From an uncultured Paracoccaceae bacterium (GTDB lineage Bacteria; Pseudomonadota; Alphaproteobacteria; Rhodobacterales; Rhodobacteraceae): 64,000 bases of DNA. The DNA lies in NCBI GenBank assembly GCA_947492825.1, contig CANLNT010000002.1, forward strand, positions 256,501 through 320,500, read 5' to 3'. The notes below the pieces were generated by a model. The model was given only the letters and a program-made list of their open reading frames with translations, searched no databases and had not been told where the DNA came from. This document shows, one piece after another, positions 14,950-20,436 of the stretch. The first letter of the stretch is position 1; each line of letters starts with the position of its first letter. Position numbers and translations under genes: made by a program.

Positions 14950-15177
14950 TCAGGCACTGAAAATCTGTGGTGTTATGATCCGGGCTTGCGTCCAGGCCTT
15001 GGCGAATGGTCCCTTGGCCGGCAGCTTCATCTGGCGCATTGCCGACAGGCCCCACGTCAGGATCGCCAGCGGCAGGGTCGCCAGGAAGATGATCGCGAAA
15101 TAAGCGTAGTACTCGCGCTTGGGCGGTGCGGTGCGCGTGCGCGATGGCACGTCCACGTCGCTGGTGAAATCTGTCAT
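14950..15177 (-). CDS. pufQ: PufQ, bacteriochlorophyll biosynthesis/assembly factor
   Basis: A 75-aa protein starting 4 nt inside the bchZ end (ATGA overlap) with a strong GGAGGACAG site. One membrane helix lies at roughly residues 24-44 ([20 protein letters not shown]), followed by a basic tail [20 protein letters not shown]. PufQ is needed for normal bacteriochlorophyll levels and is thought to handle pigment intermediates. Position at the head of puf and the single-span pattern support the call. Confidence 0.9.
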
Positions 15178-16634
15178 TTCTGTCCTCCCGTTGATGTCTC
15201 TAATGTCTCGACCGTCTGCAGGACCACGCGGTCACTGCCTGCGTCGAGGGCCGCCCGTTCGGCGGCGTCCCGCAGCGTTTTCGCCGCGGAAATGCGTGTC
15301 AGGATCGGGTGTGTTGCCACGATCTCATCCAGTTTGGCCTGGGCATCTGCGTCCCACGGCATGTCGCGCCGCAGCGGTGTCAGGGTCGCATCGGTGGCGT
15401 CCATGTCAGAGGCCAGTGGCAGGATGTGAAACAGGCTGTCGAAAAGGCCATTGCAGACCTCTTGCAGAACATAAGTCGCCCCGGCGTAGCCCATGAAGGG
15501 CGTGCCAGTCGCGCGCCTGATCGCGGCACCGGGGAAGCTGGCGGGGATGAAGCTGGGGCTGGGGCCGTGGCCCGCCTTGGTTTCTGCCAGATACATTTTT
15601 TCGTTGATCGACCCCATCAGGATCAGGGGTTTCTTGCTGTGCACAAGGTTGCGCACCTCGTCGTTGTTGGTCTTGGCCCCGCGACAGCGCGCGACGGCAA
15701 AGGCGCAGGGGAAACCCAGATCGCCCTCAAGATAATGGCGCACGCCACGGGCGTAGGTTTCATTGGCGACGATGCCGAATTCGGCGGTGGCAAAGAAATC
15801 CTGCGTGACCGAACGCCACAAATCCCAGACCGGTTTGATGGTCGAGTGCTTTTCGCGTTCGATGAAGGGCTCAGGGTCAAGGCCGGTCAGCTCGCCCAGT
15901 TTGCGCAGAAACTTGGTGGTGCTGTCGATGCCAAAGGGGGCCTGCAGGTAGGGCTTGCCCAGGCATTCGGCCAGCCCGCGGCCAAACTCGCGGTACATGC
16001 AGATGTTTACGTCCGCATTCACCAGATTGCGCATTTCAGCCAGATGCGCGCCCAGCGGCATGACCATATTGACCTCTGCCCCAATGCCTTCGACCAAGCG
16101 CCGGATTTCCGCCAGATCAGACGGCATGTTGAATGTGCCGTACATCGGCCCAAGGATGTTGACGCGGGGGGGCGCATCATCGGGGCGCTTCTTCTCGGGC
16201 GGCATCCGACCCTTGGTCATGCCGAATTCGGTGAAAATCCACGTCATCGCGCGGTCGGCGCATTCCCATTGATCCTCATCAATGGTGCGCGGCAGGAAAC
16301 GCTGGATGTTGGTGCCTTGCGGCGTCACGCCGCCGCCAATCATCTCGGCAATCGACCCGGTGACGACCACCGCGGGCAAGGCGGGATCAAGCACGTTCCA
16401 CGCGCGTTTCATCGCCTCTTCGGTGCCTTCGCCCATCTCGGTCTCACCCAGACCGGTGACAACGATGGGCAGCTCATGCGGGGGCAAGCCGTCCGTGTAG
16501 TGCAATACAGAAGTCACGGGCAGATTTTCGCAGCCGACGGGGCCGTCAATCACCACTTGCAGGCCTTTGACGGCGCAGAAGGCATAGACAGCGCCCCAAT
16601 ATCCGCCTGCACGGTCGTGATCGGTGATCAGCAT
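15174..16634 (-). CDS. bchZ: Chlorophyllide a reductase subunit Z
   Basis: A 486-aa nitrogenase-like catalytic subunit of chlorophyllide a oxidoreductase, which reduces ring B of the macrocycle with BchY and BchX. The start at 16634 ([19 protein letters not shown]) matches the family and is preceded by GGAGGGTG; the nine upstream codons are discarded. The conserved [20 protein letters not shown] segment (~31-50) contains the cysteine region. It overlaps pufQ by 4 nt. Confidence 0.97.
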
Positions 16635-16658
16635 AGCGCACCCTCCGACCGGCGGGGG

Positions 16659-16707
16659 CAAATCTTCGTCAAAGATTTGGGGGTGGCGAATATTCGACGA
16701 ATATTCG
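16659..16707 (-). other. Paired inverted repeats between bchY and bchZ
   Basis: CAAATCTT/AAGATTTG with a 5-nt loop (16659-16679), and two copies of the palindrome CGAATATTCG one base apart (16687-16707). Both fall in the 76-nt gap inside the bchXYZ transcript. They could act as mRNA processing or stabilising stems, or be small mobile-type palindromes. Confidence 0.65.
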
Positions 16708-16710
16708 GGG

Positions 16711-18309
16711 TCATATCATTGCCGCCGCTTCTGCGGCCCTCTTTTGTTTATCCAGCTTTTTCTGGTGCTGGGCGCGGAAGTCGGGGCGCAGGTTGGGCGC
16801 GCCTTCCCAGACACCAGCGGTGTCGTCGTGGCCGACGCCTTCGAAAAAGGCTTTCATCTTGCCCATCTTCTCGGCACCGTTGATCGCGGCATTCACGACC
16901 TGTTGCAGGCTGCCGGCGCCAGCAGGCCCCATCAGCGGACGGGCCGAGATCAAGTTGGTGAAGTAAAGCGAGGGGATGCCCAATTCCTTGCCGCGCTGCA
17001 CCACCGGCGTGGTCCCGATGGCAAGGTCAGGCTTGACGCCTTCCATGGCTGACAGGTCATCCTCGAGACTGGCGCGGAACTTGACCTTCACGCCTTTGGC
17101 CTCAAGCCAAGCAGCATCGTCAGCGGACCATGGTGTTTTCGGGCAGGCGGTGCCGACATAGGGCACAGTCGCGCCGCTTTCGATCAACAGGCGCGCGACG
17201 AGGAGTTCAGACCCTTCGTAGCCAGACAGGGTGATCGTGCCGTCAATTCGCGCCCCGGCTAGCGCACCCTTGATGGCGGGCAAGAACGCGTTCTGGGCTG
17301 CGGCGATCTGGTCCGGCGCGACGTTGTAGGCGTCACCGATTGCTGCCAGCCAAGCCGCCGTGCCGTCATGACCGACAGGGGCAGAGCCCACGACCTTGCG
17401 GCCAGCGGCCTGAAATTCGCGCACGGATGCGGTGTAGAACGGGTGGATCGCAGCGGCGACGCCACAATCGAGGGCGGCGTAAAGCTCGCGCCACTCGCGG
17501 GTCGGCACCACAGGTCCGGCGGCAAGCCCCATGGGGGCCAACATGCCGCCGATCATCATCGGGTCGGCGGGGAACATCTCTCCCATCAGGGCGACAGCGG
17601 GGCGGTCATCTTTGGCAGCGGTGGGCCGGGCAACGGGGCCAGCGGCGGCCTCTTCCCTTGCATAGGCGAGCATGGCACCGGCCAGCACATCCTTGGCCTC
17701 TGCATGGGTGGGGATACCAAAGCCGGGGACGTCGATGCCGACGATGCGGACGCCGTTGATTTCCTTCGGCAGCAGACGCAGGGGCACACCGGATGCGGTG
17801 GGCACACAAAGGTTGGTGACCACAATCGCGTCGTAGCGGTCGGGGTCGGCCATATCGTGCACGCTTTCGCGGATATCCTCGAAGAGTTTGCCGGTGACCA
17901 AGGTTTCAGAGTTGAACGGCACGTAGCCGACCGAGCGGCGCGCGCCGTAGAAGTGTGAAACAAACGTCAGGCCGTAGACACAGCAGGCCGAGCCGGAGAG
18001 TACGGTGGCCACACGCTTCATCCGCAGGCCGACGCGCAGCGATCCGAAGGCGGGGCACATGGACTGCGGCTGATCGTGGGGGCCCTGAGGGTAGTCGGCG
18101 GCGTATTGATCAAGGATGTCGGATTTGCCAGCGGCGCGGGCGGCCGCCTCCATCGTGGCGGCACCGGCGGTGCAGCCGCCTTCCAACGCGGTGGCTTGGG
18201 TGACGCTCATCTCTTGCTGCGCGCGTTCTTCGCCACGGATGATTTCAACCTCACCGGCGGCGTCATAGCCGACTTCATAACCTTCGCGCTGTGGAGGTTG
18301 GCCAGTCAT
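16711..18309 (-). CDS. bchY: Chlorophyllide a reductase subunit Y
   Basis: A 532-aa partner of BchZ in the catalytic tetramer. The family segment [20 protein letters not shown] (~35-54) holds a conserved Cys. [52 protein letters not shown] (roughly 84-135) supplies further cluster cysteines. The start ATG overlaps the stop of a small upstream ORF by 4 nt. Length is normal for the family. Confidence 0.97.
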
Positions 18310-18455
18310 GACGGATCCTTTGGTGCGGGTGCGGGCGACTTCCCTGCTTTCACCTCATCCACGAAATCCGTCAGGACCTTTTTAAGATCGACCGCTTCAT
18401 CCTGCAGGATCTTGGCATTGCTGATGGCCCGTTTGATGCGATCATGCGTCGTCAT
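18306..18455 (-). CDS. Small protein (49 aa) between bchX and bchY
   Basis: Found by translating the gap between bchX and bchY. The ATG at 18455 lies 14 nt inside the bchX 3' end, with GAGGTGA 4 nt upstream. The TGA overlaps the bchY ATG (ATGA). The product starts [20 protein letters not shown], continues as a charged amphipathic helix to about residue 40, and ends in an Ala/Pro/Lys tail ([11 protein letters not shown]). It has no Cys, so it is not an iron-sulfur subunit. I do not recognise it. Position and double coupling suggest that it is translated in step with the chlorophyllide reductase subunits. Confidence 0.7.
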   Translation of the reverse strand: MTTHDRIKRAISNAKILQDEAVDLKKVLTDFVDEVKAGKSPAPAPKDPS

Positions 18456-19443
18456 AGATCACCTCAAGGCTTTCCCTGGGCTTGGCATTCTTGCCGCGCA
18501 TGTCGGTGTCAGTGGCAGGGGTCAGAACAAAGTTCGCGCCCGTGTCTTCGGCATCAAAAAGACCCAGCAACCCATCCTGATCGAGCGGCGTTGGCCGCAC
18601 CGGCGGGGCCACGCCGACGGCATCGGCAAGGCCTGCAAACATCTCGCCCCACTGCGATTCCATGGTGCCGACAATCTGGTAGTTGGCGGATTTCTTGCGC
18701 AGGTCATCATCCTGCGGAATGGCCGCAAGGATCGGGATATCGACCGCCTTGGCAAAGGCCTGCGCCTCGCCGGTGCCGTCATCCTTGTTGATAACAAGGC
18801 CCGCCACACCCACGTTGCCGCCCAGCTTGCGGAAGTATTCGACGGCGGAACAGACGTTGTTCGCCACGTAAAGCGATTGCAAGTCATTGGACCCCACAAG
18901 GATCACCTTTTGCGCCATGTCGCGGGCGATGGGCAGGCCAAAGCCGCCACAGACCACGTCACCCAGAAAGTCGAGCAACACATAGTCAAAGTCCCAGTCA
19001 TGGAACCCGAGCTTTTCCAACAGCTCGAACCCGTGGATGATACCGCGTCCGCCACAGCCGCGCCCAACCTCTGGCCCGCCAAGTTCCATCGCAAAGACGC
19101 CGCCGCGCTTGAAACAAACGTCGCCAATCGCGACTTCTTCGCCTGCGAGCTTTTTCTTGGCGGAGGTTTCGATGATCGTCGGGCAGGCCTTGCCGCCGAA
19201 CAGCAGGCTGGTGGTGTCGGATTTCGGGTCACAGCCAATCAGCAGCACGCGCTTGCCCTGTTCGGCCATCATGTGGCTGAGGTTGGCCAGCGTGAACGAC
19301 TTGCCGATCCCGCCTTTGCCATAGATCGCAATGATCTGGGTTTTGGACGTGGGTTCCCCTTGCGGAACCTCAAGCGTGGGCTGGGCCGCTTCATCGCGCA
19401 GGGCCTTGTCATAGCCCTTGAGGTTCGGAATTTCGTCCTTCAT
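18442..19443 (-). CDS. bchX: Chlorophyllide a reductase iron protein subunit X
   Basis: A 333-aa NifH-like ATPase that delivers electrons to BchYZ. The P-loop GKGGIGKS lies at residues 42-49. The [4Fe-4S] ligand regions are [20 protein letters not shown] (~127-146) and [10 protein letters not shown] (~162-171), and the switch region is [15 protein letters not shown]. It overlaps bchC by 4 nt at its start. The acidic C-terminus ([10 protein letters not shown]) overlaps the small ORF. Confidence 0.97.
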
Positions 19444-20378
19444 GCGGTTCCCCAGTTCAGGATCATTTTCAGGCAGGCCGGATCGGTAAAGGCCGTGGTG
19501 TAGGCCTTTGCCGCGTCCGCCGCGGGTCGTGTTTCAGAGATCAGATCGTCGAGCCGCAGCACGCCGCTTTCGACCAGCGCCTTGGTGGCGGTCATGTCGT
19601 CGGGCTGCCATTCGGCAGAGATGCGCATCCGGGCCTCTTTCATGAAGGCGGGTGGAAAGGCGAATTGCAGCGGCTGGGTGTAGAACCCGGCAAGGACGAT
19701 TTCACCGCCGCGCACCAAACGCCCGATCATGTCATTCAAAAGATCAGCACGGCCCGAGGCATCGTAGATGCTGGCGTAGTCGCGGCGCGTGTCGGCATCG
19801 GGGGTCACAACGTCATAGCCGTCCGCCCCATCCATTCGAAGCGGGTCGATTTCCCACACGGTGGGCGCGGGTGCGCCGGCTACGATGGTCAGCCGCGCCA
19901 GAAGGCGGCCCAGAACACCGTGACCGATGATCAAATCCGGCACAGCCTTGCCCGGTCCGGCCATCGCGTGGCGTGCGGTAGCGGCCAACGCCAAAAGCGC
20001 GCCGGACGCGCCCAGGCCCCGGTCGATCCGGGTCACGCGGGATGCAGGGGTGACAATGGTGGCAGAGGCCGCGCCAAAAAGGCCAAACGCCCCGTCATAG
20101 CAATTGGCACCGGGGACAAAGACATGTTCACCCACGCAGAACCCGCTGTCGGGGCCAGCCTCGACCACTTCGCCTGCGGCCTCATAGCCGGGGATCAACG
20201 GATAGCCCATGCCGGGAAAGGGGGGCATTTCGCCGGTCCAAAACAGCTTTTCCGTGCCGGTTGAAATGCCAGAGTGCAAGACGCGGACAACGATATCGCC
20301 GCGCGCTGGCGCGGTCAGGGTCACCGATTCGACACCCAATTCGCCGGGTGCGTTCAGAATGACGGCCTTTGTTCTCAA
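19440..20378 (-). CDS. bchC: Bacteriochlorophyllide a (3-hydroxyethyl) dehydrogenase
   Basis: A medium-chain dehydrogenase-type protein of 312 aa that oxidises the 3-hydroxyethyl group to the 3-acetyl of bacteriochlorophyllide a. The start is probably TTG at 20378 (product (M)[18 protein letters not shown]), with GGGGA 6 nt upstream. The in-frame ATG at 20435 would lie inside the promoter and PpsR sites. Typical features are the [20 protein letters not shown] region and [15 protein letters not shown] Rossmann motif. It is first gene of the bchCXYZ-puf transcript. Confidence 0.92.
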
Positions 20379-20436
20379 GGTTTTTCCCCGTTTTGTCCCG
20401 ACATTTGGCGCAGTTGAAGTGCGACAATCTGTCAAC

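Follow-up and report, generated by a model that had tools for sequence, protein, structure and literature searches.

A candidate accessory protein encoded between bchX and bchY in Rhodobacteraceae

Chlorophyllide a reductase performs a committed step to bacteriochlorophyll. The alternative nitrogenases have a small extra protein, the delta subunit AnfG or VnfG, that is encoded among the genes of the enzyme and made with it. AnfG and VnfG are larger than the protein described here, are conserved, and are encoded between the two genes for catalytic components, not after the Fe-protein gene. The 49-residue protein that is our subject resembles them in being small and in having its gene amid those of a nitrogenase-like enzyme, an association seen in our case at the level of operon position. 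It differs in that its open reading frame (ORF) follows the Fe-protein gene, bchX, and in having no significant family match.

A second likeness is to PufX and PufQ, small accessory proteins of the phototrophy operons of the Rhodobacteraceae, where a slot can hold alternatives. PufX replaces PufC, so that one slot carries either of the alternative genes pufC and pufX, according to the sections consulted of PMC6052148. However, the ORF studied here lies at another position and matches no family significantly. At the level of titles, abstract openings and text passages, no description of a gene between bchX and bchY was found in the literature. The photosynthesis gene cluster table of Dinoroseobacter shibae has nothing between the two genes in the portion consulted (PMC6052148), and no gene at this junction is mentioned in the corresponding portions of PMC10890935, PMC12654162 and PMC6920907.

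The bchX-bchY junction in the window

We analyzed 64,000 nucleotides from an uncultured Paracoccaceae bacterium (positions 256,501 to 320,500 of contig CANLNT010000002.1, assembly GCA_947492825.1), and we call this whole stretch the window. The gene bchX, for the iron protein of chlorophyllide a reductase, lies on the minus strand at 18442..19443 (TIGR02016, 434 bits, E = 2e-130), and bchY lies on the same strand at 16711..18309 (TIGR02015, 737 bits, E = 7e-222). They are flanked, also on the minus strand, by a probable bchZ at 15174..16661, assigned by position and appearance, and a probable bchC at 19440..20435, assigned by position, which overlaps bchX by 4 nt. The order annotated in plasmid records of relatives is bchC-bchX-(ORF)-bchY-bchZ.

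The 49-residue ORF occupies 18306..18455 on the minus strand, with its ATG at 18455-18453 and its TGA at 18308-18306. It overlaps the last 14 nt of bchX, and its end overlaps the start of bchY by 4 nt as ATGA. The preliminary description had placed the ORF here with both overlaps, leaving the strand unstated, and it is correct on each point. The GAGGTGA site that it reported is also present; this Shine-Dalgarno-like sequence lies on the minus strand at 18459..18465, 3 nt ahead of the ATG and inside the BchX codons L-E-V-I. However, the site and the ATG double as codons of the conserved BchX end SLEVIYDD, which is found also in loci that have no junction ORF. Furthermore, in 38 of the 107 loci without one, a start codon is available in the bchY frame at -13/-10. 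The Shine-Dalgarno site and the ATG alone are therefore weak evidence for a gene. The double coupling is real, yet its start half comes "for free."

The opposite strand carries a 475-residue open frame at 18076-19503 (plus strand), antisense to bchX and bchY. Most probably it is a by-product of G/C-rich coding DNA, a shadow ORF.

Coding potential and predicted fold of the ORF

Six genomes represented the genus of the window. All six have bchX, and five have the 49-residue ORF: that of the window, another from its species, and three more. The sixth, G397, has in its place an ORF of family B, which is defined below. The preliminary description had tied the standing of the ORF to conservation of its frame in relatives; the frame is kept in these five genomes, but the exact protein was found only in the genus. 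The genus has four distinct alleles, each of 49 codons with identical overlaps, and the evidence for selection on the window ORF comes from these four. A comparison of synonymous and nonsynonymous changes, which the preliminary description had proposed, gave dN/dS of 0.17 to 0.27 in five of the six allele pairs (NG86, codons 6 to 48). In the sixth pair, dS was saturated (pS 0.78, pN 0.26). In the other two frames, pN exceeded pS in 8 of 12 comparisons, and pS exceeded pN by only 0.01 to 0.05 in the other 4. Variable sites among the alleles numbered 19, 15 and 31 at codon positions 1, 2 and 3 (p = 0.011). The window ORF thus shows signs of purifying selection at the sequence level. Its codon score was 0.33, compared with 0.31 ± 0.09 for segments of six neighboring ORFs and -0.34 ± 0.14 for off-frame reading. 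One antisense frame of the same DNA, with one stop, also scored as gene-like in codon usage (0.22).

An AlphaFold model built on an alignment of three sequences predicts a single helix spanning residues 3 to 36, with a mean pLDDT of 88. By ten-residue block, the pLDDT is 95, 98, 96, 84 and 66, and the Ala/Pro/Lys tail is of low confidence. The model agrees with the charged amphipathic helix and Ala/Pro/Lys tail that had been read from the sequence earlier. A heptad seam runs along the predicted helix (I7, A10, A14, L17, A21, L24, L28, F31 and V35). All nine a/d positions are hydrophobic in all four alleles, and six of them are invariant. The heptad contrast, a measure of our own devising, was matched by 0, 0, 0 and 1 of 300 shuffles of the four alleles. 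With its predicted long helix and a/d seam, the window protein would belong to the coiled-coil class. Because dN/dS, codon positions, codon usage and the predicted helix with its conserved seam all point the same way, we regard the 49-residue ORF as very probably a protein-coding gene.

The Pfam and NCBIfam libraries contain models for the AnfG/VnfG delta subunit, PufX and PufQ. Neither library gave the ORF a significant match, to these or to any other family. The sole Pfam match at E ≤ 1, EntA_Immun (E = 0.085), fell below the cut-off, and NCBIfam returned nothing at E ≤ 1. Searches beyond these libraries gave a PHROG head-tail connector at E = 0.056 and, among PDB chains, NDUFV2, IF2 and tropomyosin at E = 0.6 to 10, none of which is significant. 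For BchY, no PDB chain matched by sequence at E ≤ 1e-5.

Small ORFs at the junction in other Rhodobacteraceae

A direct protein search recovered the window protein in 2 of 394 genomes of the family at E ≤ 0.01, both of the window's species. We therefore surveyed the junction itself. BchX was present in 159 of the 394 genomes; seven of these did not enter the survey, and a few had no bchY. The first survey comprised 155 loci, 145 from the 394-genome search, 5 from the genus and 5 from plasmid records; 80 loci of named records were added later (2 without bchY). The gap from the bchX stop to the bchY start was at least 45 nt in 101 of the 155 junctions, and bchY started within 45 nt in 54. A coupled ORF ran from the bchX end to the bchY start in 83 of the 101 gapped junctions; 200 dinucleotide shuffles gave 47 on average and at most 59. 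Seventy-four of the 83 had the exact 4-nt overlap (shuffle mean 39, maximum 49), and the gap was in the one coupling frame in 76 of the 101 junctions, where one-third would be expected. Among the remaining 18 gapped junctions are three with tandem ORFs (L030, L089 and L150), several that the bchY frame crosses without a stop, and a few that show neither arrangement. The excess of coupled ORFs, the bias to the coupling frame and the signs of purifying selection on the window's own ORF argue for more than chance.

Much of this would also suit a simple translational relay, in which the translated gap carries ribosomes to bchY and the peptide is of little consequence. In most junctions, bchY starts close by or an ORF in one frame spans the gap, the ORF sequences differ strongly between lineages, and the start codons in the bchY frame of ORF-less loci fit as well. 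However, a pure relay does not predict a dN/dS near 0.2 or a conserved heptad seam. A relay with a dispensable peptide is the main rival of an accessory protein, but a relay role and a protein role are compatible.

We then sorted 136 junction ORFs (130 distinct) by iterated profiles, starting from motif-chosen seeds (25 for family B, 35 for family A) with an inclusion limit of 1e-4; the best shuffled-peptide decoys reached 0.24 (A) and 0.005 (B). Family A has 47 ORFs (46 distinct) with the motif M[FL]DL[DE].L at the -7 ATG, and family B has 40 (39 distinct) with the motif ARPEQ[IL].RLL.DI. An earlier sorting of fewer loci had given 44 A and 19 B members, with no reverse-strand decoy at E < 0.01. 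The 49 ORFs outside A and B (45 distinct) include group C, the window's own type (D), very short or repeat-derived ORFs, and orphans. Named carriers are Yoonia vestfoldensis and Roseovarius mucosus for family B and Roseobacter litoralis Och 149 for group C. Group C, 57 residues long and from eight Roseobacter loci, was gathered by eye, and its profile recruited only a duplicate. In a comparison of B with C, hhalign gave p = 5e-4 to 7e-4 but a probability of only 10 to 14%, and we kept the two separate. Among the A (18) and B (17) members scanned, no Pfam or NCBIfam family was consistent; single weak matches to various families (E = 0.005 to 0.1, the commonest in 4 of 17 members) were set aside. 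A and B are undescribed families, defined in this analysis. They share with the window ORF the slot and the coupling geometry, but differ from it in sequence.

The preliminary description knew of no named protein at this position. As to names this holds, with no literature description and no family match, but RefSeq does annotate unnamed "hypothetical proteins" there. Four of the five plasmid records examined, out of 11 matches, carry one with the same two overlaps, 14 nt with bchX and 4 nt with bchY. These proteins, of 57 to 63 residues, are WP_158308178.1 (R. litoralis), WP_169642524.1 (R. ponti), WP_076630660.1 (T. omphalii) and WP_259993782.1 (Sulfitobacter sp. S190). They occupy the same slot as the window ORF, but their sequences differ from it. 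The two Roseobacter proteins served as seeds of group C, and the other two fall in no family.

We considered whether the window ORF belongs to any of these sets. It lacks the M-[FL]-D-L of family A; five of the six window-type rows gave no reported match to A, and the sixth gave E = 57. For family B, E was 1.6 to 3.7, compared with 0.005 for the best decoy, and the scores of the window core against B were reached by 166, 494, 528 and 858 of 1,000 shuffles. The hints of kinship with B are the same slot, the same length and a PAPKDP tail common to a relative, L194, but the profile and core scores do not support a diverged B member. Profile-profile comparison of the window type with B gave p = 6e-4 over eight N-terminal columns, most of them constrained by the bchX overlap, and the p values of 0.013 to 0.019 obtained elsewhere include those columns. 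An N-terminal likeness, MT[TMK][PH][DE], might suggest a common origin of many junction ORFs, but we did not use it, since the overlap with the BchX codons Y-D-D-A-stop leaves little freedom for residues 1 to 5. The window alleles were absent among the best 32 matches listed for group C (hhalign p = 0.65 to 0.76). KYDA-stop ends beside IYDDA-stop in Yoonia relatives raised the idea that the ORFs duplicate the BchX C terminus; comparison with the BchX tail did not bear it out (hhalign p = 0.95, 0.85, 0.78 and 0.76 for B, A, C and D).

Several features of individual ORFs and gaps were observed. The long A members (for example, L045, L123, L031, L091 and L059) have a C-terminal CPF or CPH, several with further cysteines, which is absent from short members and is possibly a metal or thiol site. 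The B-type ORFs of L011, L025, L029, L030, L082 (just under the family B limit), L139, L230 and L233 begin with MCDxC or MCxxC. Part of this motif is dictated by the upstream gene, where GTG-TGA in the overlap gives M-C-D, but the second cysteine lies beyond the overlap. In the tandem loci L030, L089 and L150, an ORF of 57 to 63 residues precedes an A or B member, and the two are joined by a ATGTTTGA/ATGTGTGA overlap like that joining bchX to A or to MCD-type B elsewhere. In L089 and L150, the first ORF ends in the ATGTTTGA overlap seen at the bchX-A joint. Nine gaps (L032, L072, L078, L081, L086, L103, L161, L241 and L257) contain a palindromic G/C-rich repeat and no A, B, C or D ORF. The repeat is followed by CGGAGT or a similar stretch, and GCAAGATGAAG also occurs in four of the nine. 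We take it to resemble a dispersed intergenic repeat; one form of it, with up to three mismatches allowed, had no match in the window.

Among 219 distinct bchX loci of the Rhodobacteraceae type, 112 have a small junction ORF and 107 have none. Coupled junction ORFs of at least 20 residues are absent from all 18 loci of other alphaproteobacterial families, one of which has a 16-residue frame by a loose rule. Judged by the loci sampled here, the slot seems peculiar to Rhodobacteraceae, its contents often gained, lost or replaced. A FastTree bchX tree (last 60 nt omitted) was built from 237 rows with distinct bchX: the 219, 17 outgroup rows, and L162, from another family. The 112 ORF-bearing rows are 46 A, 37 B, 7 C, 4 D, 3 tandem and 15 others; a few of these others are repeat-derived, and four of the A and B rows scored slightly below the limit and were included manually. 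ORF presence changes at least 52 times on the tree, compared with a mean of 74 and a minimum of 64 for shuffled labels. Yoonia vestfoldensis SKA53 has a B ORF and its sister Yoonia sp. M30B39 has none (support 99); likewise, B is present in Roseobacter sp. CCS2 but absent from Y. maricola (support 55). With 107 loci lacking the ORF and at least 52 changes of state, the junction ORF cannot be essential for chlorophyllide reductase. The preliminary description had pointed to this junction in relatives as a check. Small coupled ORFs are indeed common in the slot, but the window protein itself was found only in its genus. Because other species fill the slot with other ORFs or leave it empty, the window protein is not a general partner of chlorophyllide reductase.

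Such turnover might instead reflect ephemeral new genes, if the built-in Shine-Dalgarno site and ATG of the junction repeatedly turned insertions into short-lived, functionless orphan peptides. The many changes on the tree, the share of ORFs outside A and B, and the palindromic repeat-like inserts in several junctions are in keeping with this. However, A and B are widely spread, and there are signs of purifying selection both in the window's genus and in family B, where variation at codon positions 1, 2 and 3 was 35, 30 and 78 (five independent pairs; p = 1.5e-7). We consider functionless peptides very improbable as the explanation. Individual groups within B differ in this respect (p = 0.23 for L216/L258 and 0.058 for the Y. 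vestfoldensis group), that is, in codon-position variation. Family A gave 66, 56 and 88 (eight pairs; p = 0.006). In group C the codon-position bias was not significant (9, 6 and 14, p = 0.068; 39, 35 and 45, p = 0.17).

The end of bchX itself is associated with the family that follows it. Of 46 A loci, 44 have GTT or GCT as the last codon of bchX, compared with 13 of 174 other loci, and these two make up about 6% of GTN/GCN codons inside the same bchX genes. Either one makes the overlapping ORF read M-F-D or M-L-D, with F or L as residue 2. Over 12 independent pairs, a mean of 10.8 agreed with the link and none opposed it (median p about 0.001). Neither this link nor the motifs shared by the A and B members is predicted by a pure relay, and as a full account we find the relay rather unlikely. 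An accessory protein that also relays translation is the reading that we favor.

For the other ORFs, the codons of the BchX end are less telling. GAGGT is present in 61 of 66 non-A ORF loci, 13 of 46 A loci, 50 of 108 ORF-less loci (which include L162, of another family) and 3 of 17 outgroup loci. The enrichment of the GAG (Shine-Dalgarno) and TAT (start) codons is striking in raw counts and suggestive, but as marks of selection by non-A ORFs they gave median p values of 0.125, 0.146 and 0.25 on independent pairs. In Rhodobacteraceae, the BchX-end codons double as the Shine-Dalgarno site and start of the next ORF. The BchX end SLE[VI][IV]Y[DE] is conserved also in the 18 loci outside that family and is therefore not explained by a downstream start alone.

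Proposed role of the junction proteins

We suggest that the 49-residue ORF is a genuine, translated small gene, that its product is an optional, co-translated, lineage-specific accessory protein of chlorophyllide reductase, and that its translation also serves as a relay to bchY. We give this joint reading, accessory role included, a probability of roughly one-half. In this scenario, ribosomes leaving bchX would restart at the ATG of the ORF, make the peptide, and restart again on bchY. Through such termination-reinitiation, synthesis of the peptide would keep pace with that of the Fe protein (BchX) and of the catalytic component (BchY/BchZ). The product may self-associate as a coiled coil, or its hydrophobic seam may pack onto BchX or BchYZ, and it could aid the assembly, stability or docking of chlorophyllide a reductase. 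Relatives would fill the slot with family A, family B, group C, orphans or nothing, and in the last case bchY could sometimes start at the same ATG.

The preliminary description had suggested a small partner, assembly or protective factor of the enzyme, and the partner role of the window protein is one that we infer. The product could instead serve the pigment pathway without binding the reductase, for example, as a pigment carrier, a regulator or a PufQ-like assembly factor. The operon position would suit other steps equally well, and the A and B members tested match no known family across members. We also looked for BchX or BchY residue states that follow ORF presence. Among 526 column/residue tests, the best uncorrected p was 6e-7, and none of the 12 top-ranked states was significant by median p on independent pairs (0.18 to 1; lowest single pairing, 0.012), so no residue association with BchX or BchY was seen. 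However, when the profiles were run against the 394 genomes, all 37 matches to A adjoined bchX, as did 19 of 21 matches to B, the other two being weak (E = 4e-4 and 6e-4). Matches returning to bchX are partly so by construction, and the informative part is their scarcity elsewhere. A product that acts away from the reductase is unlikely, and the accessory reading stays our preferred one.

A broader reading would make the bchX-bchY junction an accessory-subunit slot. Unrelated small helical proteins (A, B, C, D and others) would be swapped in and out of it, each as an optional, lineage-specific partner of chlorophyllide reductase, and selection would act on the bchX end to specify the BchX tail together with the beginning of the partner. 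We put this forward tentatively, as a possibility that we hold with some doubt.

The coexpression of 18 genes in Escherichia coli verified a minimum set for the pathway, according to the sections consulted of a 2023 paper (PMC10443036). Should many natural operons encode small accessory proteins in addition to this minimum set, such proteins might influence yield, oxygen tolerance or the stability of the complex. The slot is, moreover, a clean case of selection on overlapping genes, in which the last codon of BchX goes with residue 2 of the next protein. Close relatives carrying A, B, C, D or none would be natural replicates for how small proteins join an old enzyme.
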